Virus record (IMG/VR): IMGVR_UViG_3300048008_000449
Location: 140,773-204,772 of that record
DNA length: 64,000 bases
Reading direction: 5' to 3' (one strand)
Origin: a virus
Both the position numbers and the translations under genes were made by a program. The notes under the pieces are model-generated. The model saw nothing but the letters and a program-made list of their open reading frames with translations. It searched no databases and was not told where the DNA came from. Shown piece by piece: positions 28,461-64,000 of this stretch. Numbering within the stretch: the stretch's first letter is position 1; each line of letters starts with the position of its first letter.

Positions 28461-30878
28461 TTACGAAAGATCGCCAGTGTTTACAATTCTAATTGGAATG
28501 TAAATAAATTCTGCTGATTTTGTAGGCTCAATTGCTACGTCAACATAAAATTCATTTGCATCAATTCTTGCTGGTGTGTTATTTGTTGTATCACACACAA
28601 CTGCAAAATCGTAAATACCACGCTGTTGTAAAATGTTAGCTAGGAAACCATCAAATACTGCTTTAGCATTTGCACGTGTTCCTGCATCATTTGGTTCAAA
28701 TAAGAACGGTCTTGAAATAACTGCAAAACGCTCTCTTAGATAAGCTGTAAGTCTAGCTACGTTCACTCTGTCTAATGCTGAAGCAGTTGTATGAAGTGAT
28801 TTTTGACCAAATACAACAACGCCCTCTGCCGGGAATCTTGCAATTGGGTTCAATTTGTTATCATACATTGCATCTCTAGAACCTTGTGTTAGTGCTACTT
28901 TAACGAACTCGTCTTCGCTGTTTAAGTAACCAACGTTTGATGCGTTTTGTACAACACCACGTGTTAAACCTGCTGGTGCAAACCATTGGAATGACACATT
29001 ATCACTGTATGCATATGTGTATAATGCAATGTGTGATGCTGGTGCAACAACGCTATCGCCTGTTACTGGATTTGTAGTTAATGCGTGTGGGTAGTAAACT
29101 GCTGAATAAGTATTCTTAGTTACTAGTCCTTTTTCACCATTTTCAGTTGCCGCTGTTCCTTGAATCCAAGAAACTGCTTCTGTTGCATTTAAACGGAATG
29201 GAGCATCAACAATAACAAATGCTGTTTCGTCTTTGTCGCTGTTTAGTGTTACCATTTCGTCGTATAGTTCTGGATATGCTGGAGCTGCAATTAAACGGAA
29301 TTGAACTGTGTCTTCACGTAGTTCTGGTTTAGCTGCTGATGCTTGCATAGCTGTTGTGACAACTTTACGCTGAGCTAATCTACCAAATGAACCACTGCCA
29401 TCGGCTGCATTGCTTGCTTTGTTACGCCATTTCCAAGGTGTTGCTAGTGAACTATCATATTCTCTAACTGTGCTTGAAGATCTACACATGTTAATACCAG
29501 TTATTCCAACTGGATGTATTAGTGGATCTGGAGCACCTGCTAATAGAGTTGCTTCAAAGGCACCTGCTGCTGTAGCGTTGGCAGTAATGTCGCCAAATAC
29601 TATACCTGCACTTGTGCTTTGATCTGTACCATCTTTTAATATCCATGCTGTACCGTTATGTCTGTAAATTACAGGATAACCGTCTGCATCTGTATCTACC
29701 CAGTAATCACCATCTGATAGTGATCCACCGGATCCGTCTGTAGTTGGAGCAATAGTTACATACTGTACATCAGAAACTTTTTGCCATTTCTGTGTTCCAC
29801 TATCGCTTACTACTTCGTAAATTGCTAAGTCGTTAACATCTGGATCAAACCAAAGTGTACCATCTACTGGAGCACCTGTTGGTTGAGTTACTGATGCGTT
29901 CATTACAAATCCGCCTGTTGCTGTAGTTGGGTCTGTTGAGATGTCATCCCAATCATTACCAATACTGTCATAACGTTTAATTGAAATGTCTGAAGTAGCA
30001 GTGTCTAGCCAAATGTCGCCATCTGTTAATGTACGTGATGTTGCTGATGAACCATCTGCAAACGTATCACTTGTAGCACCAGTTGGTGCTGAAGCTTGTG
30101 CGTATGTTGCTTTTTCAGAAACAAATGCGTCAGCTACTGTTGTAAATAATTTAAGATCTACATTTAATCCGCTACCCGGTGTTGTTGTTTTAATCCATAC
30201 ATCACCTACTGATGGGCCTGCTGGCGCTGAGTAGTGTGGTGCGAATGTTGGTGTAACTGCTACCCATGCTGGGTTAGAGTCACCTACATAGTATTCAATT
30301 TTTGTGTCTGTTGTAGAATTTGCAACTGCTACAAGGTATTCACCTTGAGTTGCTGATGTGCTTGGAGCACTTCCATCTGTAAGTTCTACTGTTGGAGTTT
30401 TTTCTACCCAGCCTGCTGCTGAATATTCGAATATACCCCAACTTGAAGTTGAAGGGCTTACCCAATATGTATTATTTGCAGGATTACCTGTTGGTTCTGC
30501 TGAAAGTGGTCTCAATGCTGTTAAGTCTACATCAGAACGTACAATGTACGCCGCTGAACTTTGACCTAAAAATGAGTATGCTGCCAATAAACCGTATTCG
30601 TTAGTTTCATCACCTTGTGATACTGTGCCACTTACCTTACGGAAGTCGACATTACCAAAATATTGAGTTAATTCTCTTTGTGATGTAACTAGAACAGGTT
30701 GGTTTGAATTTGCAGACTTTGTAAATTTTGCAATACCATCGGTTTCAGTTAGGGTTGGATCAACCTTGTCCTGACCAGTGGCAATGAAAATCATTGGTAC
30801 AGTACCGGCACCGGCTGGACCGTAAACTGATTCGTCTGTTACTGTTACCTGGACGCCAGGTGAAACAAGATTTGCCAT
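28461..30878 (-). CDS. 18: Tail sheath protein gp18 with inserted repeats
   Basis: Contractile sheath subunit. 805 residues versus 659 in T4. The N-terminus MANLVSPGVQVTVTDES and the C-terminal block (NPIARFPAEGVVVFGQKSLH, RLTAYLRERFAVISRPFLFEPN, IPIRIVNTG) are sheath-like. Residues ~145-440 hold about six copies of a 40-50-residue module of the form G-D-x-W-x-D-T...I-Y/R-x-Y/H...W (for example DGDYWVDTDADGYPVIYRHN and DGTLWFDPDVNDLAIYE). These are inserted into the sheath and probably face outward. AATAAATAC promoter and GGAG site upstream; terminator downstream. Confidence 0.9.
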   Translation of the reverse strand: MANLVSPGVQVTVTDESVYGPAGAGTVPMIFIATGQDKVDPTLTETDGIAKFTKSANSNQPVLVTSQRELTQYFGNVDFRKVSGTVSQGDETNEYGLLAAYSFLGQSSAAYIVRSDVDLTALRPLSAEPTGNPANNTYWVSPSTSSWGIFEYSAAGWVEKTPTVELTDGSAPSTSATQGEYLVAVANSTTDTKIEYYVGDSNPAWVAVTPTFAPHYSAPAGPSVGDVWIKTTTPGSGLNVDLKLFTTVADAFVSEKATYAQASAPTGATSDTFADGSSATSRTLTDGDIWLDTATSDISIKRYDSIGNDWDDISTDPTTATGGFVMNASVTQPTGAPVDGTLWFDPDVNDLAIYEVVSDSGTQKWQKVSDVQYVTIAPTTDGSGGSLSDGDYWVDTDADGYPVIYRHNGTAWILKDGTDQSTSAGIVFGDITANATAAGAFEATLLAGAPDPLIHPVGITGINMCRSSSTVREYDSSLATPWKWRNKASNAADGSGSFGRLAQRKVVTTAMQASAAKPELREDTVQFRLIAAPAYPELYDEMVTLNSDKDETAFVIVDAPFRLNATEAVSWIQGTAATENGEKGLVTKNTYSAVYYPHALTTNPVTGDSVVAPASHIALYTYAYSDNVSFQWFAPAGLTRGVVQNASNVGYLNSEDEFVKVALTQGSRDAMYDNKLNPIARFPAEGVVVFGQKSLHTTASALDRVNVARLTAYLRERFAVISRPFLFEPNDAGTRANAKAVFDGFLANILQQRGIYDFAVVCDTTNNTPARIDANEFYVDVAIEPTKSAEFIYIPIRIVNTGDLS

Positions 30879-39411: not shown

Positions 39412-40617
39412 TTATTTTGATTTATAGTGAATTAATTTGTCATAATATAGTGCTAAAGTAGCCCATATTGCGTCTGGGTACAAGTTAGTATATTTGTTTC
39501 CCATTTTATGATAATTTTCCCATACTGTTTTACTTACATCAAACTTACTGTAATATTTCCAAAAATCAGTATCTGTTCTATCACTTAACATGTAATGATG
39601 TTTTATATATGTACTATTATCATTCCAAACATTACGCATTGCTCTATTGTAAGTTTTAGCCCCATATCCACGTTTTAAGCACCGTACAAGCGTTGTTATA
39701 CTGAATTGCGTCATAAACAGTGCATTACTTTCTAAAGGGTCTATAAAGCCGTTACTGAGCCCTACTGCAACTACATTATTGTGCCAGGGATTAGCTAAGA
39801 CACTAGGATTCCATTTTAACAGTCTAGGTGTTTTTCCCATAAAGGGAGTTCTGTGTGCATTTACTTTATTAAACTCTGCAAGTGCATCTTCGTCAGTTTG
39901 ATGTTTGCTACTAAACACATATCCTGTTCCAATTCTATTTGTTAAATCAATTATAAATTGCCAACCATTACTACGTGCTACGCTTTGAGTGTATCCTTGT
40001 ACATCATTATCTTGCAATTCAAAAGGACAAACCCATGCTCTATCTACTAAATGATTTTCTAATTGTACTTCAGTATTGTCTTTTACAAATTTTCTACGAA
40101 ACCCTGTGCAGTCTATATATAAATCATATCCCTCTGGTAACTCGTCTAATGTGTCTATAATGTGAGTTACATTTTTACAATTATTTTTAACTATGTCTCC
40201 GGCTTTTTCAGCATCTAAGTGATATGCAGTTGCTTGCCAGCCACCTTTGTGATATAGTTGATCATTAATGTTATGCTTATCAACAATACCACTATCGTAT
40301 TGTTGTTTCCATTTATCAAAAACATTATTATCATTAAACCAAAAGGTGAATGCAAACGGATCGCCATTTGGCTTATTCCATTGACTCTTTATGTTTCCAA
40401 ATTTCTTTTGTGCATTACTTTTTTCCATCCATTCGTCTTCTGACATTCCCATGTCTTCAAAGAATTGTGCAATCTGTGGTAATGTACTTTCGCCTACGCC
40501 TATAATAGGAATATCACTACTTTCAATAAGTGTAATATCATAATCTGGAAATTGTTTTTCTAAGTATCCTGCGGCCCACCATCCAGTAGTTCCGCCTCCA
40601 ATAATACAAATTTTCAT
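39412..40617 (-). CDS. Flavin-dependent halogenase-like protein
   Basis: A 401-residue protein of the tryptophan-halogenase family (PF04820 type). Rossmann FAD motif GGGTTGWWAAG (7-17), GVGESTLP (40-47), a candidate catalytic Lys (K71/K72) where PrnA/RebH have K79, and a G-F-I-D-P-L-E-S motif near residue 288. The W-x-W-x-I-P halogenase signature appears as GWQFIIDL, altered at the second Trp and the Pro. Marine cyanophage Syn10 encodes a characterised relative, VirX1 (iodinating halogenase). Substrate here unknown. T4-type TATAAATAA box and AAGGAAC site upstream. Confidence 0.85.
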   Translation of the reverse strand: MKICIIGGGTTGWWAAGYLEKQFPDYDITLIESSDIPIIGVGESTLPQIAQFFEDMGMSEDEWMEKSNAQKKFGNIKSQWNKPNGDPFAFTFWFNDNNVFDKWKQQYDSGIVDKHNINDQLYHKGGWQATAYHLDAEKAGDIVKNNCKNVTHIIDTLDELPEGYDLYIDCTGFRRKFVKDNTEVQLENHLVDRAWVCPFELQDNDVQGYTQSVARSNGWQFIIDLTNRIGTGYVFSSKHQTDEDALAEFNKVNAHRTPFMGKTPRLLKWNPSVLANPWHNNVVAVGLSNGFIDPLESNALFMTQFSITTLVRCLKRGYGAKTYNRAMRNVWNDNSTYIKHHYMLSDRTDTDFWKYYSKFDVSKTVWENYHKMGNKYTNLYPDAIWATLALYYDKLIHYKSK

Positions 40618-52032: not shown

Positions 52033-53181
52033 TTACTTTTTAGCTTTAAGTTCTTCTACTTGAGCTGATAATTCTTTAACTGCTTCAATTAGTAGACCTG
52101 TGATGTTTCCGTATGCTACTGAATGAACACCTTCTGCATCTGTGTGTACTGCTTCTGGAAGAACTGCTTTTAGTTCTTGGGCGATAACACCAGTTGAAGT
52201 TGATCCATCTGAGATACGATCAAAAGTTACACCACGAATTGCTTCAACTTTACCTAAAGCACCGTCAATTACTTGTACGTTTGTTTTTAGAGTATCGTCT
52301 GAGTAAGCTGTAATATCACCAGTTGCTGTAAAGCTACCTGTGTATGAACCACTCATTGCAAACGATGTACCAGTTAATGATAAACCGTTGCCTGCAGTGT
52401 AAGTTGTATCTGCATCACCATTATCAGCATATACTTTTGCTGCTGCTAGTGCTGCGTCTGCTTTAGATGTTGCGTCTGCTGCCGCTGTTGCTACTGCGTC
52501 TGCTTCTGCTGTATCTGTGTAAGCATAAGAGATAGTAATTGCTTCAGCTTTTTTAGCATCAGCATATGTATTAGATGCTGAAATAGCTGCTGCTTCTGCC
52601 GCATCTGCTTTAGTAGTTGCGTCTGCTGCCGCTGTAGAAGCCGCTGATGAAGTAACACTAGCGATTGCTGAACTTAGTTCTGAATCTGTTGCCATTGCAT
52701 CTTGGATTTCTTTCAATGTATCAAACGCTGCGCCTGCACCGTTAGTTACTGTTGAAACTGCTGCCGCTTGTGCCGCATCAACATAAGTTTTGTTTGCCGC
52801 ATCGTTACCTGATGTTGGTGCTGCTAAATCAGTAATTTTCTTGCTGTTCATGTCGATGGTTTCTTTCATGTCCAGTGTATCGTCTATACGAACACCTTTT
52901 TTGAAACGTGTTGTGTTGTTTACGTTAGTACCAAAACTTGCGTTGTTACCATCGTCAGCTGCACCATCTGTAGTTGTTAGTTTTGTTGCTAGAATTGAAA
53001 TGTTACGTTCCATGTCCGCCATACGTCTTAGAGACGATTTTGAACCTGAAATTGTAATTTCTTCTGCACCTGGATCACCAGTAAACTCTGTTAGTGTACC
53101 AGTTGAATCGTACTTATATTTCTTTGATTTATCGAATGAAAAGGTACCTGTAGCACCATTACTTCTTACTTTTCTTGCCAT
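52033..53181 (-). CDS. Tail fibre-like protein with C-terminal S74 chaperone domain
   Basis: A 382-residue fibre-like protein. The N-terminal region is followed by a NSKKITDLAAPTSGNDAANK, then YVDAAQAAA shaft with heptad-like Ala/Asp repeats (ADATTKADAAEAAAI). The last ~95 residues (YSDDTLKTNVQVIDGALGKV... FDRISDGSTSTGVIAQELKA ... LIEAVKELSAQVEELKAKK) match the Peptidase_S74 intramolecular chaperone, which trimerises the fibre and then often cleaves itself off. Terminator follows. Confidence 0.82.
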   Translation of the reverse strand: MARKVRSNGATGTFSFDKSKKYKYDSTGTLTEFTGDPGAEEITISGSKSSLRRMADMERNISILATKLTTTDGAADDGNNASFGTNVNNTTRFKKGVRIDDTLDMKETIDMNSKKITDLAAPTSGNDAANKTYVDAAQAAAVSTVTNGAGAAFDTLKEIQDAMATDSELSSAIASVTSSAASTAAADATTKADAAEAAAISASNTYADAKKAEAITISYAYTDTAEADAVATAAADATSKADAALAAAKVYADNGDADTTYTAGNGLSLTGTSFAMSGSYTGSFTATGDITAYSDDTLKTNVQVIDGALGKVEAIRGVTFDRISDGSTSTGVIAQELKAVLPEAVHTDAEGVHSVAYGNITGLLIEAVKELSAQVEELKAKK

Positions 53182-53254
53182 TTTAATTCTCCTTTAGAGT
53201 TGTTTAGCCACGTAGTAGAACTCTGTTCCACCATAGCACTTATTAAGTGCCTAA

Positions 53255-53277
53255 GTAGGGGGTTTGGCTCCCCCTAC
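53255..53277 (-). terminator. Hairpin between fibre genes
   Basis: Eight-base GTAGGGGG/CCCCCTAC stem with a seven-base loop, 17 bases after the 480-aa gene. It lacks a T tract, so it may only reduce read-through to the S74 fibre gene, which has no late box of its own that I could find. Confidence 0.55.
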
Positions 53278-53294
53278 CTTTGGACTAATCTTTA

Positions 53295-54737
53295 TTAGCT
53301 AACTAATTTCCATCCTTTGACTTCAATTTCGTCGCCTACTTCAATAACATTCGAGTTGAATGTTACTACACCTGTTGATGTGTTAACTGAACTTAATTCA
53401 GCTGGTCTAGCCAGTTGTCTGTTAACGTATACTGTGTAATCATCTGCTCCAACAACATCAGTAAATGTATATGCTAGTGTTGCCGCATTAGTTACATCAG
53501 TTACTGAACTGTGGAATGTTGAAGTTGAAATATTTGCTTCAATTCCTGCTACTGCTGTTGCAATTGCTGCATCACGTGCTGTTGCTTCTGATGCTACTTT
53601 AGAAGTTGCATCTGCACTTGCTGTAGCTTCAGCCGCTGATTGAGCTGCGTTTGCTTTAGCTGTTGCATCTGCTGCCGCTGATGCAATTGCATCTGCTTCT
53701 GCTGTATCTGCATAAGATTGTAATGATGTAGTTACTGTAGCAATCTCTGTATCAGTATATGTATTTGCTGACGTTCCACTTGACGAAGCACTTGATGCAA
53801 TCGCTGCTGTGTAAGCTGTAGTAATTGCTGTTTCACGTGTATCAGTGTAAGTGCCTGCTGCTGAAATTGCATCTGCTTCTGCTGCATCTGCTTTAGTAGT
53901 TGCATCTGTAGCCGCTGTAGTAAGTGCATTAGATACTGTGTTGTCAGTGTAATTACCTGCTGATGCAATTGCCGCTGTATCACCTGCTACTCTGTTTGAT
54001 GTTTCTGTTGATACTAGTGTGTTAAGAGCTGCTACGTCTGCTACTCTTGCCGCATTAGCTGAAACAATCGCTGCTTGGTTAGTAGAGATATCAGCTGCGT
54101 TAGTTGCAATGTTTGTATTAGCTGTAGTAAGTGCAGTTGTGTTAGTTGCAATATTAGCTGTTACTGTTGCACTAAAGTTAGCGTCATCGCCTAAGGCGTT
54201 AGCTAATTCATTTAATGTATCTAATGCACCAGGTGCACCGTTGATAACATTTGCAACTTGCTGGTCTACATATGCTTTGTTTGTTACGTCAGTTGTATCT
54301 ACTGGTGTTGAGACATTAACGATTCTGTTTGAATCCATGTCAATTTTATCACCAAATGTTACGGCTGCGCCGCCAGCGTCAGTAATTCTTTTACCAGACG
54401 CCATTTGTAATGTTGCGTTTATTGCTAGTGGTACCTGAGATGATAAAGTTAAAGCACCAGTACCTTCTGTCTTAATGGTAAGTCCTTGGTCAGTGTCAGA
54501 TCTAACAATAATAGTTCCAGAATCGTCTTCCAAAACTTTTTGGTTGTTAATGAATAGTGATCCTTGTGAAAGATATAAGTCTCTCCACTTGAATGAAGTA
54601 GAACCTAAATCGAAACCTGTTGTACCATCTGAATCAACATTAGGTAGGATTGAACCACCCATTGTTAAGTTTGCTAATAATTCAGAGGCGTCATCAGTTT
54701 TGAAACCACCATCAATTATAAATTTTCTTTGTGCCAT
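53295..54737 (-). CDS. Tail fibre-like protein with shaft repeats
   Basis: A 480-residue protein. N-terminal MAQRKFIIDGGFKTDDASEL and FDLGSTSFKWRDLYLSQGSL, then INNQKVLEDD, are head-on modules seen in phage fibre proteins; VDTTDVTNKAYVDQQVANVI then GAPGALDTLNELANAL begins the coiled shaft of N-x-A/T-A-D-I-x-T-N-Q/x repeats. The C-terminal ~90 residues are globular (TYTVYVNRQLARPAEL). It is closely related in design to the 1588-aa fibre upstream. Confidence 0.78.
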   Translation of the reverse strand: MAQRKFIIDGGFKTDDASELLANLTMGGSILPNVDSDGTTGFDLGSTSFKWRDLYLSQGSLFINNQKVLEDDSGTIIVRSDTDQGLTIKTEGTGALTLSSQVPLAINATLQMASGKRITDAGGAAVTFGDKIDMDSNRIVNVSTPVDTTDVTNKAYVDQQVANVINGAPGALDTLNELANALGDDANFSATVTANIATNTTALTTANTNIATNAADISTNQAAIVSANAARVADVAALNTLVSTETSNRVAGDTAAIASAGNYTDNTVSNALTTAATDATTKADAAEADAISAAGTYTDTRETAITTAYTAAIASSASSSGTSANTYTDTEIATVTTSLQSYADTAEADAIASAAADATAKANAAQSAAEATASADATSKVASEATARDAAIATAVAGIEANISTSTFHSSVTDVTNAATLAYTFTDVVGADDYTVYVNRQLARPAELSSVNTSTGVVTFNSNVIEVGDEIEVKGWKLVS

Positions 54738-54905: not shown

Positions 54906-57900
54906 TTAAACATCAATGTAAGTTGCAATAACTTTCACGTCTGCTGAACCTGATGTTGGTGTATAAGTTAGTTCTACTGTGTTACCATTCATAGTCACAC
55001 TTGCATCACCAATTAAGTCGTTTCCGGTATAAACCATCGCGTACTCTGTAATGTATGCAGTTGTTCCATCATGTACAACTAAAGCTTCACGTGTCTCATA
55101 GTTACCATTTGCGTCACCCACTTGGATAACATACTTAGCTGAACGATACAGTGTACCGTTAAAGCTGTCTACAGTTGTAGCACCAGTTGCTGAAACTGAT
55201 GATTTCTGTACGTATGCTTTAATATCCGCTGAGAACTTATCAAACGTTACCTGACCTGCAACAAGTACTGGCTGTAAGCCTGAAATGTGTGCAACAACTA
55301 CTGCCGCAGTTCCTACTGGTAGGGCACTGTTGAATGTAATTGTTTGTGCAGATGAGTTGATAGTATAGTGAGTTACTGGATCCTGAATAACACCGCCAAC
55401 AAATACCATGCTGTTTGCTTGGTCTGTTACGAAGTTAAGTGAATAAGTAGTCGCTACACCGTCACCTGGGATAGTTTGACGTTGGTTACTTGTAAAGATA
55501 TCTAATGGGCTTACTAGCTCCATTCCATCTTCAGTTGAGTTAACACGTAATACAAAGTCTTCTTTACCTGTGTAATCTGTGTCTGAGACATCAGTTAAAT
55601 CAAGTACTGATTCATTTGTATCAATGCTAATAACACCTGTTGCACTATCGTAAGTTGCTAGGCCGTTGCCTGCTGTATCTGTTACAGATATAGCTGCTCT
55701 TGCTTTTGCTGGTGTGTAGTATTCGTTGCTACCTTCAGTTAAGTCATCTGTAGTGTAAACTGAGATGTCTTGTGACTGAATTGCTGCATCTAATACTGCT
55801 TTAGAAACTGCGTCACCTGGGTTGGCTGCTGTTCCTAAACCTGATACCATGTTACCGCCCATAGCTACATCACCGCTCATTGTTCCACCAGCTAGTGGTA
55901 GTTTAGTTGCGATTACTGTATCTTGTGCTGAGTCAGCTGCTGCAAACTCTGAACGAATTGCCGCTCTGTCTGTAGTTGCTGCTGCATGGTCTGTATCATT
56001 GTCTGATACTTCAGTTGCTAGTGCTTGTGATAGTGCCGCTTCAGCTGCCAATGCACGAGTTTCCTCTGCACCAATTGCTGTTGAGTTGGCTGCTACCGCA
56101 CCAGTTAACGTACTGTCTGCGTTTTGGAATGCTGTAACGATTTCTGTTAAAGAATCCAAAGCTGCTGGGTCAGTGTTACTGATGATGTCATTAACAGTCG
56201 ATGTTAAGTTTGTGATTGCTGTTGCATTTGCGCCTTCAGCTGCTGTTGCTCTAGTTACTTCAGCTGTTAAGTTAGTAGATACAGTAGAAATTGCTGCTGC
56301 ATTTACGCCCTCTGCCGCTGTTGCTCTAGTTACCTCATTTGAGATTGCTGTTGCGTTTGCTGCTTCTGCATTCGTTGCACGTGTTACTTCATTTGCTAAA
56401 TTAGCAGTTAATACACCTTCTGCTGCTGTTGCACGAGTTTCCTCTGCATTTACTGCTGCATCTAGTTTGTCATCTGCGTCTTTTAGAGTTGAAGCTGTAC
56501 TGATGTAATTAGCTGAACCATTAGCTGTGTAAGTACCGTCTGTTGCCAAACCTGCACCTGCTTGTGTAGCTGTAATTTCAGTTAAGTTATTTGCGATATC
56601 AGTTGCGTTTGCACCTTCTGCCGCTGTTGCTCTTGTTGTTTCCGCCGCAATTGCGTTTGCATTTACTAATTCAGCTGCTCTTGCTGTTGTTGCTTCTGCT
56701 GTAATTGCGTTTGCATTTACACCTTCAGCTGCTAAAGCTCTTACTGTTTCTGCTTGGATAGCAGATGCATTAGTTGCAATATCAGTTACGTTGGTTGCAA
56801 TGTTAGTTGCGTTAGTTGCGATATCAGTTACGTTACTTGCAATACCTGCCGCATTAGTTGCTACATTAGTTGTTAATGTTGCTTCTGCTGCTTCGGCACG
56901 TGTTTTTTCAGCTAAGATTGCCGCATCCAATTTGTTGTCAGCATCTTTTAAAGATGTTGCACTATCAATTGCATGTGAACCTGTTGCTGCTGTATACGTA
57001 CCATCTGCATTTAAGCCTGCGCCTAATTGCGATGCGTCAACTTCAGTTTGTAAGTTTGCAATACCTGATGATGAACCTGTGTTCAATTCATTAATTGCTT
57101 CTGTTACAGTTTGTGCTGTAGTTGTCATTGTTGCAGAACCCATTGTTGCTTCTAAAGCATCAATATTACCTTCTTCAGTTGTTAAACGTGTGTCTAACGC
57201 TGTATCAGCTGCTGCAAATTCAGTACGGATTGCCGCTCTGTCTGTTGCCGCTGTAGATGATAACGAAGTGATCGCACCGTTAATTGTGCTATCAGCACTT
57301 TGGAATGCACTAACAATTTCTGTTAATGAATCTAAAGCTGCTGGATCAGTGTTAGTTAGAATTGAATCAATTCTAGCTGTTTCAACATCAATGTTTGATT
57401 GTAAAACACCTTCTGCTGATTGTGCTCTAGCTATTTCAATGTTTAGGTTTGAAACGTTAGTTGCGATATCAACAACATTTGCTGCGATAGCATTTGTATG
57501 TGTTGTATCTGCTGTAGTTGAACGTGATACTTCATTAGCGATTGCTGTTGCATTTGCACCTTCAGCTGCTAAAGCACGAGTTTCCTCTGCTGTAATAGCA
57601 TTTGCATTTGCTAATTCAGCTGCTCTTGCTGTTGTTGCTTCTGCAGTAATTTTACCATCTAATGTTGTATCAGCTGCTGCTCTGTCTGTTGCTTCTGTAG
57701 AAATTGCAGTTGCGTTAGTAGCAATGTCTGCTGTATTAGTAGCAATATTGCCTGCATTAGCTGTAATGTTTAGAGTGTTAGCACCTTCTGCCGCTAAAGC
57801 TCTATTTTTCTCAACTAGTACTTCTGCATCTGTGTAAGTTTCTGCTGATGCAATTGCATCTAGTTCAGCTTGGTCTGCATATGCTTCTGCCGCTGCTGCT

Positions 57901-59672
57901 CTTACAACGTCTTTTGCTTCTGCCGCTGTAATTGCATCTGCTTCTGCTGCATCTGCTTTAGATGTTGCGTCTGCTGCCGCTGTTGCGATTGCATCTGCTT
58001 CTGCTGTATCTGCGTATGCTTGTGCTGCCGCTAGTGTTTGAGCATCACCTGTAGTTCTATTAGTTACTTCATTTGCTAACCCAGTTGTTAGAATGCCTTC
58101 AGCTGCTAAAGCACGAGTTTCCTCTGCCGCAATAGCTGTTGCATTAGTTGCGTCACCGTTTGTACGATCACTTGTTTCTGTTGCCAGATCAGTGATTACT
58201 GTGTTAAGTGTTGCAGTTAATACTGAGTCACCATTTTGAAATGCTGTAACGATTTCTGTTAATGAGTCTAAAGCTGCTGGATCAGTATTGCTAATAATGT
58301 TAGCAATGTCTGCTGTGTTGGTTGCAATATTAGTTGCGTTAGTTGCGATATCAGTTACATTAGTTGCAATGTCTGCTGTTGCAGTTGTTACTTCTGTATG
58401 TAGTTCGTTAATCGCTGCACCTAATGAAGTTGCAGTTGTATCAAGTGGTGTATTTGCGATATCACCAACAGTGTCTTCTAGTGCTTGTACTTCTGTTTCC
58501 AGTGTAGTTGCACGTGCTGCCAATGCAGTATCTGCCGCATCACTTGTTGCTGCTCTTGCAACGTCTTTTGCTTCTGCTGCCGCAATTGCGTCTAGCTCAG
58601 CTTGGTCTGCTTTAGCTGTTGCATCTGCTGCCGCTGTTGCGATTGCATCTGCTTCTGCTGTATCTGCGTATGTTTCCATTGCAGTTTGTAGGGCTGTATC
58701 TGCTGCTGCAAAATCAGTTCTGATACTTGTATCAGCTACTGCTCTAGCATTTGCTTCAGTGTTAATGTCTGCCGCGTTAGCTGCTTCAGCGCCTTGTGCT
58801 CTAGTTACTTCAGCTGCTAAGTCAGTTGTTAGCGTTGAAATTTCACCGTCTGTAGTGCTGATTTCAGTTGCTAAACCACTTTGTAGTGTGCTGATGTCGC
58901 CTTCGTTAACTGTAACTCTTGCGTCTAATGCATTGTCGTCAGCTAAACGTGTAGCTGCTTCAGTTGAAATAGCTGCCGCATTTGCCGCTTCAACACCTTG
59001 TGCTCTAGTTGCTTCAGTTGAAATTGCTGTTGCATTTACACCTTCTGCTGCTGTTGCACGTGTTACTTCTGCTGTGATAGCGTTAGCGTTAGCTGTAATA
59101 GCCGCTGTTAATGCACTATCTTGACTTTGGAATTCAGCAACGATCTCACTTAGTGAGTCAAGTGCTGCTGGATCAACGTTTGATACGATGTTATTAATTT
59201 GTGTTTGTAAACCAGCGTCTGCCGCTTTATAAGCTGTGTCAAGTGCAGATTCTGCGCCTGTTGCACGACTTACTTCGGTAGCTAGATCAGTAGTTAATAC
59301 ACCTTCTGCTGCTGTTGCACGAGTAATTTCAGCCGCAATATCATTTGCGTTCTGAGTTTCTGCTGCACGTGCTATAACTGCTTCTGCTGCCACTGCATCA
59401 GAAATATCTGTTGCAACTGCTGCCTGTGCTCTTGCATCTGTAAAATACTTAAACCCAGCATTTTCTGCTAAATCTGAAGTATCAAATGATCCAATTAAAT
59501 CACCAGCTGTTACTTTAGCTAATGATGATGAAGCGTTTGTGTGTACTAAAAGAGTGTCTAGACTGTCGAGAGATACAGAAGCAGTTTGGCCTGAAACTGA
59601 ACTTGCATCTAACTTAGTGTTAAGGACCGACTGATCCGCTAACGCTGGACTCTTAATTTGTCTAAAAGCCAT
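54906..59672 (-). CDS. Long tail fibre-like protein, repeat-rich shaft
   Basis: A 1588-residue protein starting MAFRQIKSPALADQSV, from the ATG at 59672 behind GGAGAAATCTCT; a TTG 18 bases earlier is rejected. The shaft contains many heptad-like A-x-A-E-x-x-R-A-x-x-A-E-G-A/V-N/L repeats and four copies of a (N/S)-(T/V)-D-P-A-A-L-D-S-L-(T/S)-E-I-V module. C-terminal ~180 residues form a beta domain (VTYSLNFVTDQANSMVFVGG type). Likely a trimeric receptor-binding fibre; receptor unknown. The gene has a long structured leader. Confidence 0.82.
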   Translation of the reverse strand: MAFRQIKSPALADQSVLNTKLDASSVSGQTASVSLDSLDTLLVHTNASSSLAKVTAGDLIGSFDTSDLAENAGFKYFTDARAQAAVATDISDAVAAEAVIARAAETQNANDIAAEITRATAAEGVLTTDLATEVSRATGAESALDTAYKAADAGLQTQINNIVSNVDPAALDSLSEIVAEFQSQDSALTAAITANANAITAEVTRATAAEGVNATAISTEATRAQGVEAANAAAISTEAATRLADDNALDARVTVNEGDISTLQSGLATEISTTDGEISTLTTDLAAEVTRAQGAEAANAADINTEANARAVADTSIRTDFAAADTALQTAMETYADTAEADAIATAAADATAKADQAELDAIAAAEAKDVARAATSDAADTALAARATTLETEVQALEDTVGDIANTPLDTTATSLGAAINELHTEVTTATADIATNVTDIATNATNIATNTADIANIISNTDPAALDSLTEIVTAFQNGDSVLTATLNTVITDLATETSDRTNGDATNATAIAAEETRALAAEGILTTGLANEVTNRTTGDAQTLAAAQAYADTAEADAIATAAADATSKADAAEADAITAAEAKDVVRAAAAEAYADQAELDAIASAETYTDAEVLVEKNRALAAEGANTLNITANAGNIATNTADIATNATAISTEATDRAAADTTLDGKITAEATTARAAELANANAITAEETRALAAEGANATAIANEVSRSTTADTTHTNAIAANVVDIATNVSNLNIEIARAQSAEGVLQSNIDVETARIDSILTNTDPAALDSLTEIVSAFQSADSTINGAITSLSSTAATDRAAIRTEFAAADTALDTRLTTEEGNIDALEATMGSATMTTTAQTVTEAINELNTGSSSGIANLQTEVDASQLGAGLNADGTYTAATGSHAIDSATSLKDADNKLDAAILAEKTRAEAAEATLTTNVATNAAGIASNVTDIATNATNIATNVTDIATNASAIQAETVRALAAEGVNANAITAEATTARAAELVNANAIAAETTRATAAEGANATDIANNLTEITATQAGAGLATDGTYTANGSANYISTASTLKDADDKLDAAVNAEETRATAAEGVLTANLANEVTRATNAEAANATAISNEVTRATAAEGVNAAAISTVSTNLTAEVTRATAAEGANATAITNLTSTVNDIISNTDPAALDSLTEIVTAFQNADSTLTGAVAANSTAIGAEETRALAAEAALSQALATEVSDNDTDHAAATTDRAAIRSEFAAADSAQDTVIATKLPLAGGTMSGDVAMGGNMVSGLGTAANPGDAVSKAVLDAAIQSQDISVYTTDDLTEGSNEYYTPAKARAAISVTDTAGNGLATYDSATGVISIDTNESVLDLTDVSDTDYTGKEDFVLRVNSTEDGMELVSPLDIFTSNQRQTIPGDGVATTYSLNFVTDQANSMVFVGGVIQDPVTHYTINSSAQTITFNSALPVGTAAVVVAHISGLQPVLVAGQVTFDKFSADIKAYVQKSSVSATGATTVDSFNGTLYRSAKYVIQVGDANGNYETREALVVHDGTTAYITEYAMVYTGNDLIGDASVTMNGNTVELTYTPTSGSADVKVIATYIDV

Positions 59673-59701
59673 AGAGATTTCTCCAATCAAATATATTTGA
59701 T

Positions 59702-59724
59702 TTGCATGTAATCTTTACATGCAA
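59702..59724 (-). repeat. Leader hairpin 1 of long fibre gene
   Basis: Perfect 10-base stem TTGCATGTAA/TTACATGCAA with a 3-base loop, in the 5' leader about 30 bases from the start codon. Too strong to be chance decoration; regulatory role inferred. Confidence 0.7.
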
Positions 59725-59725
59725 A

Positions 59726-59755
59726 AGTATAACCACAGCTTAACGAGGTTATACT
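59726..59755 (-). repeat. Leader hairpin 2 of long fibre gene
   Basis: Nine-base stem AGTATAACC/GGTTATACT with a 12-base loop, immediately upstream of hairpin 1 in the same leader. Confidence 0.65.
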
Positions 59756-59782
59756 ACATAAGGTCATTACAACCTATGCAAT

Positions 59783-59791
59783 GTATTTATT
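59783..59791 (-). promoter_or_regulatory. Late promoter of long fibre gene (AATAAATAC)
   Basis: Minus-strand AATAAATAC, about 110 bases before the ATG, giving one of the longest predicted leaders in the window. Confidence 0.6.
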
Positions 59792-59826
59792 AGATTTGGG
59801 AGTTTATTAAGTAATATGATTATTAT

Positions 59827-61032
59827 TTAGATTGGCATATATCTGAAATCAACAACTGAATTTGCACCTGGTGCTGTTGTGATTGTTAGTGTTGTTCCAT
59901 TTATTGTATATTCTGTTGTTGGTAAAATTGAACCATCAACAATAACTAGAACACTATGTACGCTATGCCCAGCAGGAACTAGATAATCTGTAGTTGTACT
60001 ATCTCCTGTGTATTGACTACTAGTATATATCAAATTTAAATGCTTATTCTCAATACAGTTATTTGGAAATGCTGTAATATTTGCAAAAGAATATCTATAT
60101 TTTACATAAATGTCTGCACCAACATGAGGAGTTACACTAAATGTTAATACTGCACCATTAAGTGAGAACACATCTGGTCTTTGTAATACTTCATCGACAT
60201 AAACATCAATTGCTTCTTCGGTTGCTGGAGTACTATTTAAGGTAAAATCTACTTGTATTCCATCACCTGTAAATTCTTGTGCTGGTTCAATACTTGTAGA
60301 AGGTAATGCTAAATCATTTCTTAGTAAGTTTTCTAAGTTTGTTAATTCTGTACTTGTAGCAAACGCTGTATCTGCATTTTGAAACGCATTAACAATTTCT
60401 GTTAATGAGTCAAGTGCGGCAGGATCTGTATTTGTTAATATGTCTGCTACTTGTGTCTGTAGTGTAGCAATGTCACTATTAATATTAGCAACAACATTTG
60501 GATCACTAACACCAAATTGCCCTGTGTAGACTGCACCACTTATATAAACACTTTTTCCTGTAAAGTCTTTTCCATCTGGTAAGTTATCACCAATAAAGTT
60601 TAATACACCTGATTGATAATCAAAGAACCATTCATCATTATTACCACTACCAGTAACAAATACTTTATTTGCTAAACTTTCTGCATTAGCTGAATCATTG
60701 CTATCATGAATATAAACACTAACAAGATATGTACTACCAAATTCTGGAGTAACCCAATCAGTAACTCCTGTTTTCCAAGTTCGTTTACCTGTTGCTGTAA
60801 TATCTTCAGTTGCTTCAACTGCTGAGTATATGGTTAATACACCCGCTGATGTTGTTGGTTTAACACTTGGTATATCACCAGATTCTGCCCATACTTTATC
60901 ACCACGTAATAAAAGTGGACTTGGAATACTTTCATTGGCCGCTAATTTATTAAATATGGTATCTGTTTTAGTTGCACCATATCCTAACTTTTTAAATAGG
61001 TAGTCAATTTTTTGATTGTCGGAAATAGCCAT
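59827..61032 (-). CDS. Virion structural protein of the fibre cluster
   Basis: A 401-residue beta-rich protein, MAISDNQKIDYLFKKLGYGA at its start, with TGKRTWKTGVTDWVTPEFGS and DEWFFDYQSGVLNFIGDNLP in the first half, one PAALDSLTEIV module (about residue 205), and two repeated C-terminal beta units. The start overlaps the preceding stop (TAATG). A baseplate or fibre-base role is inferred from its neighbours. Confidence 0.7.
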   Translation of the reverse strand: MAISDNQKIDYLFKKLGYGATKTDTIFNKLAANESIPSPLLLRGDKVWAESGDIPSVKPTTSAGVLTIYSAVEATEDITATGKRTWKTGVTDWVTPEFGSTYLVSVYIHDSNDSANAESLANKVFVTGSGNNDEWFFDYQSGVLNFIGDNLPDGKDFTGKSVYISGAVYTGQFGVSDPNVVANINSDIATLQTQVADILTNTDPAALDSLTEIVNAFQNADTAFATSTELTNLENLLRNDLALPSTSIEPAQEFTGDGIQVDFTLNSTPATEEAIDVYVDEVLQRPDVFSLNGAVLTFSVTPHVGADIYVKYRYSFANITAFPNNCIENKHLNLIYTSSQYTGDSTTTDYLVPAGHSVHSVLVIVDGSILPTTEYTINGTTLTITTAPGANSVVDFRYMPI

Positions 61033-64000
61033 TAACTAGCTTCTCCTATTTGCAAGTTTGTTATTTCTTGACCACTCGTAAGTGCTATTCTAACTAACAC
61101 AACATTATTAGTTGCATTACTCATATTTTCACTACCTAAAGTCATTGTATAACTATTATCGTTTATTGTACTGTTTGTAGGAATAACATCTGCGCCTGTT
61201 AATGCACAACCGTCAGCACCGTTACCTCCTGTTCCAGTATTACTACCAGGAACACCTACACCTGCATATTGACTTGTACCTTCTAGCCAACCACTTAATC
61301 CACTTGCAGTATCTATACCAGTACCAGGAGATGCAATCCACATACCTGCAATACCATTAGGAGCTGTAAGTCTAATATCAAAGTTAGCAACAACCTGTCT
61401 TTGGAAAGCAAAAGTAAAATATTGTGTTCCAGTATCAGCACTTCTATCTGGACCAACTGGTAAAAATCCTGTGCTATAGTTTGTTGTATTGTGTTCTAAT
61501 TGTCCCCAACGTACTGTTGCTTCTTGTGTTCCACTTACTGCTATTGCACCAGTGAACGGTGTTGCCATATAATCAATAACACTATTAATAGTAGGGGTAT
61601 TTGTATTACCATATGCTACAAAGTCTGCAATACGTATTGCATTGTTTGTGATTACTCCATTACCTAGTGTTGTTGCTACTGGTATATCGTCTTCTATTAC
61701 ACCGCTAGGATTAGCTGTATGTACCTGTACAGAGGTGTTTGTTAGTTCTACATAGTTAGAGCTACCATTAACATTATTTGCTTTAAATTTAAGCGTTTCT
61801 ACTGCCGCTATATTGGATGTAGTAATGTTAATAAGTTGATCTGCTATATTATATGGAGCTGTAAATCCTGTGTTTGAGTTTGGTATACCATTTGTTAAGT
61901 ATGGTGTTGTTCCACTTTCAAGTTCTGCATAGTCTTTGTACTGTGTACTAATTGTTGCACCACTTGTTCCTTCTGAGTTAGTTCCATTAGAAATTTCAAA
62001 TACATTATTTGTATCTCTATATGCTTGACCAATCCAGTCAGTAAGCAGTGCACCAGTTAGTACCAACTGTGGACCACCGGTGTTATAATATGGAATTCCA
62101 GATATGTATCTGTACGTTCCAGGATTATTCTCTGAGAGGATAGAACCAGCAAGGTCAATAGTAGGAACGTTAGTTAAGTCATCACAAATAACTGTTACGT
62201 AATTAGTATTTCCTGTTTCTGTATGCTCTATCCTCTGATCATTTACACCTAGTGAGTATCCACTGAAGTTGTTAGTAATCTTTGAATCAAATGTTTGGTA
62301 AAATCCTGTAGGATAAGTTGACGAACTAATTGTATTATTTGCATCATCTTGTCCACTAATAACTAAGCTACCAAATGTACCGTTTTCGTTTAGGGAAGTA
62401 GTAAAAGATTTTGATCCGCTTGATACTCCGTTAATAATTGCACTAGCTTCTCCACTTAATCCATTATAAGAATTTTGTGCAATTGTTGTGTCAATTGTAC
62501 CATTTGTGTATCTTCTTGCTGTATATGTATCTAAGTCATCACCTGCTGTTAAAGGAGATGTTGAACTATTATCTATAAAGCCGTTAGCTAATTTTGGATC
62601 TATACCTTGCCAAGGGTCTGTTAGTTGAATTGTTTTAGATCCTAATCCTTGTGGAGCTGCTGGTACTGCATTAACTTGGAAAGTTAAACTAGCTGTATCT
62701 GTTTGTGCAGTTATATCCGGTGTTCCACTTGCTGTAAAGTCTAATGTATAATTACCCGGTGCTACTCCTGTAAAGTCATGTTGTACGCTGTTTAGTCCTG
62801 CTTCAACATCATTTGAACTACTGTCATTCCAATTGTATTCGTGACTGTCTCCATTTTGAGTTGTATTGTTTACAGTAACTAATGCTCTGTTTACACCATT
62901 ATAATCTACGCTATCATATACATCGTAAATGTTATCGCCATTGCGATCTGAAACTGTGTTTGCACTACCTGAGATGTTTGCTCTAACATCTGGTTCAACA
63001 TGTATTGTAAATGGTGAACTAGTAAATGGACTGTTTGTGTGTGAACTGATTACTTTTAAGTTTCCTGTGTAATCTCTAGCTACGCCATTTGCTTGGTCTG
63101 AAGCTGATAATGTATATTTGTGATTTATTGTAGTTCCTTGGTCTCCTGAATTTCCAGACCCAGAATTTACTGTTTGAATACTTCCATCACCAAAGTCCCA
63201 TTCATATGTTATTCCATAGTTGTTATAACTTCCTACAGTTGCTTCTGTATTATTTGTAAATGTTACGTTTAATCCATTAACTGAATCTTCATTAATACCT
63301 GTTGTTATATCAGATGTTGTATCTGGTGTATGTGTATCATAAATTTTAAATGATGCTGTATCATCTAATGGTAATATACCTGGTGTTGCTGAACTATGTA
63401 CATCTAGTGTTAGTGTTACGTTACGAGTAACATCAATTTCTGTGCCGGGCTGGAATGTGTGAGCTATTCTAGCACCGGCACTACCACCTGTGACTGTGTC
63501 GTCATTAATAACATCATCTGCAAGACCGTCACCCCAGGACCAAGTATATTGGACTGTTGCCGCGGTTGCATTTGTTGTAGTATTTTGGAAGTAGACAGTA
63601 TCACCGTCATTCCAAGTGGTAATCTGATTTCCGCCTGTAAGTGAATCCCATGCTTGAAAACTTACTGCTGGGTCGGCGGTAAAAATTGTTATATAATCTT
63701 CTTTTGTTTTGCTTATAGTGCTACCTGCACCAGTACCATTATTATTAAATGCTGTTACTGCTACATCAAAAGGAGATCCTGAATTTGTTGCGTATGTATG
63801 TGTAGGTGTGCTGTCGGTTGTCGCTGTAGTTGTATTTCCATCTCCCCAACTAATAGTATATCTATTTGGGTTACCTTCTGTACTAATAACTAGAGTTGTT
63901 GTTAAGCCTGCTCCACCTGTTGTTATGTTTGCGTTAAAATCAATAGACTTAACATAAGTATTATTTCTTACGTTTTCAATTGTTTCATAAACATCTGTTA
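61032..64000 (-). CDS. PKD-domain virion protein, start off right edge
   Basis: An open frame runs from the right edge to a stop at 61032 (988 residues visible), with no break. It has several PKD-like beta domains marked by S-W-G-D-G-N-T (about 63830), W-S-W-G-D-G (about 63530) and E-W-D-F-G-D-G (about 63200), each followed by a H-T-Y/F or H-K-Y step. The C-terminal 340 residues are Thr/Asn/Gly-rich and end in a globular domain (FAFQRQVVANFDIRLTAPNG). A TTG at 62066 is internal, not the start. Likely adhesin or decoration protein. Confidence 0.8.
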   Translation of the reverse strand, partial: TDVYETIENVRNNTYVKSIDFNANITTGGAGLTTTLVISTEGNPNRYTISWGDGNTTTATTDSTPTHTYATNSGSPFDVAVTAFNNNGTGAGSTISKTKEDYITIFTADPAVSFQAWDSLTGGNQITTWNDGDTVYFQNTTTNATAATVQYTWSWGDGLADDVINDDTVTGGSAGARIAHTFQPGTEIDVTRNVTLTLDVHSSATPGILPLDDTASFKIYDTHTPDTTSDITTGINEDSVNGLNVTFTNNTEATVGSYNNYGITYEWDFGDGSIQTVNSGSGNSGDQGTTINHKYTLSASDQANGVARDYTGNLKVISSHTNSPFTSSPFTIHVEPDVRANISGSANTVSDRNGDNIYDVYDSVDYNGVNRALVTVNNTTQNGDSHEYNWNDSSSNDVEAGLNSVQHDFTGVAPGNYTLDFTASGTPDITAQTDTASLTFQVNAVPAAPQGLGSKTIQLTDPWQGIDPKLANGFIDNSSTSPLTAGDDLDTYTARRYTNGTIDTTIAQNSYNGLSGEASAIINGVSSGSKSFTTSLNENGTFGSLVISGQDDANNTISSSTYPTGFYQTFDSKITNNFSGYSLGVNDQRIEHTETGNTNYVTVICDDLTNVPTIDLAGSILSENNPGTYRYISGIPYYNTGGPQLVLTGALLTDWIGQAYRDTNNVFEISNGTNSEGTSGATISTQYKDYAELESGTTPYLTNGIPNSNTGFTAPYNIADQLINITTSNIAAVETLKFKANNVNGSSNYVELTNTSVQVHTANPSGVIEDDIPVATTLGNGVITNNAIRIADFVAYGNTNTPTINSVIDYMATPFTGAIAVSGTQEATVRWGQLEHNTTNYSTGFLPVGPDRSADTGTQYFTFAFQRQVVANFDIRLTAPNGIAGMWIASPGTGIDTASGLSGWLEGTSQYAGVGVPGSNTGTGGNGADGCALTGADVIPTNSTINDNSYTMTLGSENMSNATNNVVLVRIALTSGQEITNLQIGEAS

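Follow-up and report, generated by a model that had tools for sequence, protein, structure and literature searches.

According to passages of PMC3797505 and PMC3004832, the fibritin of phage T4 (gp wac) has a trimeric helical shaft, in which coiled-coil segments are broken by small loops, and a conserved N-terminal attachment domain. Passages of PMC3004832 also put the T4 proximal half-fibre at about 70 nm and place the attachment site of the T4 long tail fibres on the C-terminal domain of gp9. Here we describe a recurring sequence unit in the shaft of a long phage fibre, encoded in a 64,000-nucleotide stretch of viral DNA (positions 140,773 to 204,772 of IMG/VR record IMGVR_UViG_3300048008_000449), hereafter the window, which is the final part of this 204,772-base virus record. 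The long fibre gene (54906..59690) lies on the minus strand, as do the other fibre genes and all units given below. Started at a TTG, it encodes 1,594 amino acids (aa); translation probably begins instead at the ATG of codon 7 (first base 59672), for a product of 1,588 aa, because the orthologues in phage C48C1 and in L014 (related contigs carry L numbers throughout) also open with MAFRQIK.

In design, T4 fibritin is the nearest known system. A segmented helical shaft is predicted for the long fibre too, which likewise has a conserved N-terminal domain, and the helical heptad segments with short non-helical breaks that mark the fibritin design appear both in a sequence profile and in structural models of low confidence. 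The long fibre differs in that both of its ends are conserved while the shaft is variable, in that its joint is one recurring motif present four times, and in being far longer. Fibritin is not named among the family matches of the long fibre with E values of up to 1, no direct comparison with gp wac having been made. The recurring unit behaves as a conserved joint rather than as a copy-number repeat. On balance we think that it is probably a structural joint between the segments of a trimeric alpha-helical coiled-coil fibre, judging from sequence and from predicted structures.

Unit number in the long fibre and its relatives

Unit 1 of the long fibre, NVDPAALDSLSEIVAEFQ, occupies aa 161-198 (59097..59210; core at aa 175, 59142-59168). 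Profile searches place unit 2 at aa 458-495 (58206..58319; core at aa 472, 58251-58277), unit 3 at aa 770-807 (57270..57383; core at aa 784, 57315-57341) and unit 4, where an AlphaFold model also breaks a helix, at aa 1162-1199 (56094..56207; core at aa 1176, 56139-56165). A fifth copy was found by profile search in a 401-aa protein (59827..61032) whose N-terminal domain belongs to phrog_9417; it spans aa 191-228 (60349..60462; core at aa 205, 60394-60420). Each of these five strict copies is recovered by a profile built without it (independent E values 1.5e-17 to 5.6e-23, 52-69 bits), and the profile of all five copies reaches at most 6.1 bits among 1,200 shuffled proteins. An earlier note on this DNA, made from the sequence alone, had claimed four such PAALDSLTEIV units in the long fibre and one in the 401-aa protein, and these stand far above chance; the x-A-F-Q with which it closed the pattern is inexact, copy 1 reading IVAEFQ. 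A tandem array of the unit was ruled out, as none of the 11 rows given by Tandem Repeats Finder in the window is built of it; the rows within the long fibre have periods of 5, 7, 14 and 18 aa.

Relatives were collected from IMG/VR by two scans, one with the 401-aa protein (80 loci) and one with the unit (75 loci). One of the six patterns used in the former was also derived from the unit, and the latter, which cannot reveal fibres lacking the unit, is biased towards carriers. Open reading frames (ORFs) with both ends of the long fibre numbered 66 and were merged to 19 distinct orthologues, those with more than half of their 6-mers in common counting as one. Truncation at the 3' end, a length below 300 aa or a C-terminal match of no more than 200 columns excluded an ORF, and contig L029 was lost in this way. 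Four units are present in 16 of the 19 orthologues, a single unit of the looser form described below as B-type in two and none in one, while two, three or five units were seen in none of the 19. Every orthologue with the strict unit thus has four hits, those in slots 2 and 3 being at times intermediate in form. The 16 are diverged, with C-terminal identities of 43-91% (median 55%); the near-identical contigs L006 and L007 match the window in length and unit positions. Variation in unit number among unit-carrying orthologues, for which the earlier note had proposed comparing relatives, was looked for and not found: the number is constant at four in all 16. Half of these (eight) came from the unit-seeded scan. 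Without the loci of that scan, nine of 12 orthologues have four units, or nine of 13 if a looser cut-off admits L029, a fibre of 1,511 aa without the unit whose C-terminal match is weaker. This seeding bias leaves the main point intact, as every strict-unit orthologue still has four hits. When the last 330 residues of the 19 orthologues are placed in a maximum-likelihood tree, which does not include L029, the three exceptions form a single clade (100/100) and therefore represent one change, in one direction or the other. In L013 (10322-15069) the long fibre is split into two ORFs of 91 and 1,483 aa, probably by a frameshift or an assembly error.

Beyond the long fibre, unit number follows the protein. 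The 67 complete ORFs at unit-seeded loci, which count as distinct merely by not being identical, carry four units in 28 cases, one in 25, two in 10 and three in four, and the count thus varies with protein family. Among homologues of the 401-aa protein, 24 of 65 distinct sequences have the strict unit when all loci of the 401-aa scan and the window are scored, and in an aligned subset it is visible by eye in 17 of 40 rows.

The long fibre gene of C48C1 (Kyanoviridae, OQ984149) is orthologous at both ends, with 51.5% identity over 97 aa and 49.7% over 333 aa, but its spacers are unlike those of the window; one gene lies between it and a head-tail adaptor gene. It gave five profile hits, two of which fall in a stretch of 75 aa that recurs exactly where the circular record starts and ends. 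We rejected it as a copy-number variant and count four real units: the record closes with the same 225 bases with which it opens, an assembly overlap left untrimmed that accounts for the fifth copy. In OQ984149.1 this overlap gives the fibre protein annotated across the origin a spurious duplication of 75 aa.

Shaft length, repeats and recombination

Long fibre genes with four units range from 1,260 to 1,918 aa among the 16 orthologues, and the three spacers between units from 169 to 328, 197 to 495 and 341 to 543 aa. Insertions and deletions (indels) were compared among 19 four-unit genes, the 16 plus three close relatives, along edges of at least 0.6 identity; 17 genes and 13 edges remained, L141 and L035 falling out. 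Within the shaft (aa 110 to 40 residues past the last unit) we counted 57 indels, of which one falls in a unit against 6.2 expected (binomial P 0.011), with the reservation that positions taken from pairwise alignments of repetitive sequence are approximate and that P assumes independence. Most frequent are indels of seven residues (12 of 57), followed by those of four (seven of 57) and of one and 11 (four each); indels of 14, 15 and 18 aa also occur and the largest is 133 aa. Seven and 11 residues correspond to one heptad and one hendecad, changes after which a helical coiled coil stays in phase. In each of the 13 pairs the units are more alike than the spacers, with identity higher by 0.03 to 0.27; the smallest gaps are of the order of 0.90 against 0.87. 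Spacer blocks of 128 and 104 aa set the window gene apart from that of L025, and all units are retained. Since all 16 orthologues keep four units and one indel in 57 touches a unit, the shaft changes length without unit gain or loss. The length change that the earlier note had expected from the repeats is therefore real and takes place in the spacers, and of the outcome that it had set against itself, conserved copies with no length variation, the first half was found and the second was not, as number is conserved and length varies around the copies.

The same note had held that the repeats would favour recombination, and units might indeed serve as homology patches, cassettes for the gain, loss or swap of shaft segments. 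We consider this unlikely, the constant four units in 16 of 16 strict-unit orthologues being the first point against it, and the evidence from DNA is divided. At identical residues, codon agreement between copies in the window runs from seven of 23 with 12.0 expected (the 401-aa copy against copy 4) to 15 of 21 with 10.8 expected (copies 2 and 3). A set of 114 slot pairs from 22 genes, not independent of one another, gave a median observed-to-expected ratio for identical codons of 1.14, with p<0.01 in four pairs. Codon identity between copies is hence near random, which argues against recent duplication of DNA. Ten pairs of exact repeats of at least 20 bp occur in the window gene, eight of them in spacers, including the seven longest (up to 49 bp); the remaining two (23 and 20 bp) touch units. 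The longest has its copies at 58624-58672 and 57970-58018, both in spacers, and the stretch that it bounds (57970..58672, minus strand) has unit 2 between them. In L008/L010 and in L025, on the other hand, the gene's longest exact repeat (33 and 26 bp respectively) sits in units. Between the window's two neighbouring genes, exact matches reach 19 bp at most.

A few slots also look copied from other slots. Slot 2 of L108 and of L098 has the form of slot 3 and that of L106 the strict form, and slots 1 and 2 of L106 have 22 of 26 codons in common against 13.4 expected. When each unit was paired with the unit of another phage that it matches best without gaps, the two had the same ordinal in 192 of 360 cases, with 90 expected by chance; the test took in 10 of 11 genes, L043 being excluded for a weak fifth hit that upset its numbering. 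Gene conversion was considered as the cause of such blurred ordinals, and the codon statistics back it at most occasionally.

The distal fibre genes, which in the window encode proteins of 480 aa (D480, 53295..54737, matching tail-fibre PHROGs) and 382 aa (E382, 52033..53181, with a Peptidase_S74 chaperone domain near its end, E 3.3e-13), are shuffled among relatives. Compared in windows of 20 residues, E382 and the E genes of L016 and L020 share 55-100% identity as far as about residue 180, these E genes being its match over the first 120 residues. The D genes of L008 and L033 align to it from residue 120 only, and from about 140 it is nearer to them (75-90% against 60-65% over residues 140-180). 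As the unit of E382 spans residues 139-179, the switch of homology lies near the upstream edge of the unit; E382 looks chimaeric in its sequence, and recombination is plausible there. In D480 and E382 homology also ends at several places apart from the unit, so that clustering of breakpoints at units is unsupported. Two arrangements of the distal genes were seen, with the S74-like end on the D gene (L008, L033) or on the E gene (window 52033-54737, L020).

Register, helix breaks and the proposed joint

A heptad profile was drawn from 92 non-redundant units, positions 0-3 and 5-7 being preset by the pattern used to select them. Before the break, hydrophobic maxima at -30, -26, -23, -19, -16, -12 and -9 follow heptads; the break itself, S-N-T-D-P (N-6, D-4, P-3), has few hydrophobic residues; after it maxima recur at 0, 3, 7, 10, (14), 17, 21, (24) and 28. 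The core-position step at the break is nine residues rather than four, and the heptad register is therefore reset. Polar residues outside the selecting pattern are highly conserved (N-6 92%, D-4 91%, Q11 88%, D14 100%), and both D14 and N24 (48%) occupy core positions; an asparagine at a core d position fits a trimer.

Predicted monomers break at the same place. In the AlphaFold model of the last 462 residues of the long fibre, helices span residues 2-40 and 43-131; at unit 4 the helix ends at the N and the next starts at the P, with the break at T-D. The model of the 401-aa protein has helices at 178-200 and 210-220 around its unit, of which the first ends just before the N and the second begins at the first residues of the unit core.

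If the unit is a joint, each long helix would end at N-[TV]-D and the proline would open a new one, the heptad register being reset in between. The conserved L-L-V-F core after the break may then start the next three-stranded bundle in register. Four joints would divide the very long Ala/Thr-rich shaft into segments that could change length with the rest of the fold undisturbed. Selection would keep the joints constant in number and order, and helical repeats would be added to the spacers or lost from them.

Several observations weigh against this reading, beyond the alignment uncertainties of the indel count. Two orthologues have one B-type unit and one has none, to which L029 may be added, so the four joints are not indispensable. 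Positions -8 and +6 of the profile are strongly hydrophobic too, and the heptad reading is not unique. AlphaFold confidence is low at the break, with block values of the predicted local distance difference test of 53-62 and predicted template modelling scores of 0.28 and 0.37; as only monomers were modelled, and at this confidence, we infer the trimer and the role in folding. Units were also considered as the top amphipathic windows of the shaft, where coiled-coil formation might nucleate, and were rejected as such, being high and not top: their coiled-coil window percentile has a median of 0.88 and exceeds 0.95 in 16% of 79. This weakens a nucleating role, stronger coiled-coil windows being present elsewhere in the shaft.

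The conserved polar residues N-6, D-4, Q11 and D14 go beyond what a helix break needs, and the count is fixed though the distances vary, as might be expected if each joint bound a partner (another fibre, the tail or a chaperone such as T4 gp57A) and four units meant four contacts. We regard such docking sites as rather improbable, since no partner is known, spacer 2 varies 2.5-fold and would shift the docking points, and the unit is present one to four times in other ORFs. That four units were inherited by all orthologues, their number under no selection, is quite improbable: all 16 four-unit fibres are orthologous, and the exceptions reduce to one change in one clade, but C-terminal identity falls as low as 43%, the spacer blocks that separate the window gene from L025 go with no loss of a unit, and indels avoid units.

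Returning to the unit as a joint, it is possible, though doubtful at present, that the four joints are a selected, fixed architecture, in which a register-resetting clutch lets the rods vary by helical repeats and a trimer of 1,300-1,900 residues fold in register. Such a fibre occurs in many uncultivated myophage-like contigs, and each joint possibly sets a bend or a docking node. The suggestion that the unit may tune host range finds no support here, where the units lie in the shaft and none of the analyses bears on host range. Two open questions are touched on, the in-register folding of very long trimeric fibres and the way in which phages retune fibre reach. A motif fixed in number between variable rods marks where segments start and predicts which indels are tolerated; it offers a landmark for annotation and structure prediction in low-complexity shafts, and counting such motifs does not gauge length change.

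Looser forms, fibre ends and the gene cluster

The looser forms that the earlier note had seen in the two shorter fibres do exist, although they lie downstream of the interval that it gave and score at shuffle level against the five-copy strict profile (6.3 bits for D480 and 4.3 for E382). The D480 form, GAPGALDTLNELANALGDD (54159..54272; core at aa 170, 54204-54230), is of the B type, GAPGALDTLNELA, which is found in many tail-fibre PHROGs. The diverged E382 form near the homology switch, GAGAAFDTLKEIQDAM (52660..52773; core at aa 151, 52705-52731), is a further variant. Strict and B-type units are akin, since profile-profile alignment with hhalign joins them (E 4.6e-5, probability 68.6%, 30 columns, without the E382 form) and forms intermediate between them sit in slots 2 and 3 of orthologues.

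A tail-fibre motif, GALDTLNELAAALGDD, found in PHROG tail-fibre families, in 9d93 ('Tail collar fibers, gp4') and in 6v8i (gp68, phage 80alpha), has the D-[ST]-L-x-E core and the P position of the unit; it differs from the strict unit in a turn one residue shorter and in NELAAALGDD in place of TEIVxAFQxAD. Profile hits were obtained to 9d93 with E 7.7e-10 and to 6v8i with E 0.0098, and members of a mixed alignment match phrog_4757 (14 of 24) and the tail fibre family phrog_454 (13 of 24); none of the 24 has a credible Pfam match. We rejected 6v8i as a structural template, the unit lying at FibU residues 270-297 outside the resolved part: a passage of PMC7048315 describes FibU density as absent past residue 123, so the unit is not resolved there. 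The strings ALDTLNELA (with 'tail fiber'), LDTLNEL and PAALDSL were not found in the full text of open-licence literature.

At the N terminus of the long fibre, a conserved domain at aa 7-98 (59397..59672), matched by blastp in orthologues with and without units, is the probable attachment end. Fold comparison covered the last 462 residues. A small beta domain at about aa 1399-1472 (55275..55496) resembles in fold domains of CBA120 TSP4 and of neck/portal-complex proteins from T5 and DT57C (64-68 residues, Z 8.8-9.1). In the AlphaFold model, the conserved C-terminal beta domain of 109 residues (aa 1486-1594, 54909..55235) resembles the C-terminal domain of T4 gp9, the long-tail-fibre connector (Z 13.7, root-mean-square deviation 2.0, 105 residues), the likeness being limited to the fold of that domain. 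Similar domains were found in tailspikes (6e1r, Z 10.1), and a common fold shows no function, so that a connector role is unproven. With modest confidence, the models suggest that the long fibre is a proximal rod whose end bears the distal fibres encoded next. As the helix rises 0.148 nm per residue, a fully helical shaft of about 1,160 residues would make a rod of some 170 nm, compared with the roughly 70 nm of the T4 proximal half-fibre.

The fibre cluster comprises six minus-strand ORFs, from 63998 to 50563. Its first product is a 988-aa protein (61032-63998, phrog_8578) cut by the end of the record, with PKD-domain matches that are weak (E 2.7e-4) and fall short of the Pfam cut-off; its sixth ORF encodes a 453-aa protein. 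In contig L028 the cluster comes after the genes for a head maturation protease and the major head protein. The window also encodes a tail sheath (28461-30878, phrog_10581, E 3.4e-196) and a head-tail adaptor Ad2, and the phage is therefore contractile-tailed. A second protein of 401 aa, encoded at 39412-40617, is tryptophan-halogenase-like (phrog_2928, E 4.5e-83) and unrelated to that of the fibre cluster.

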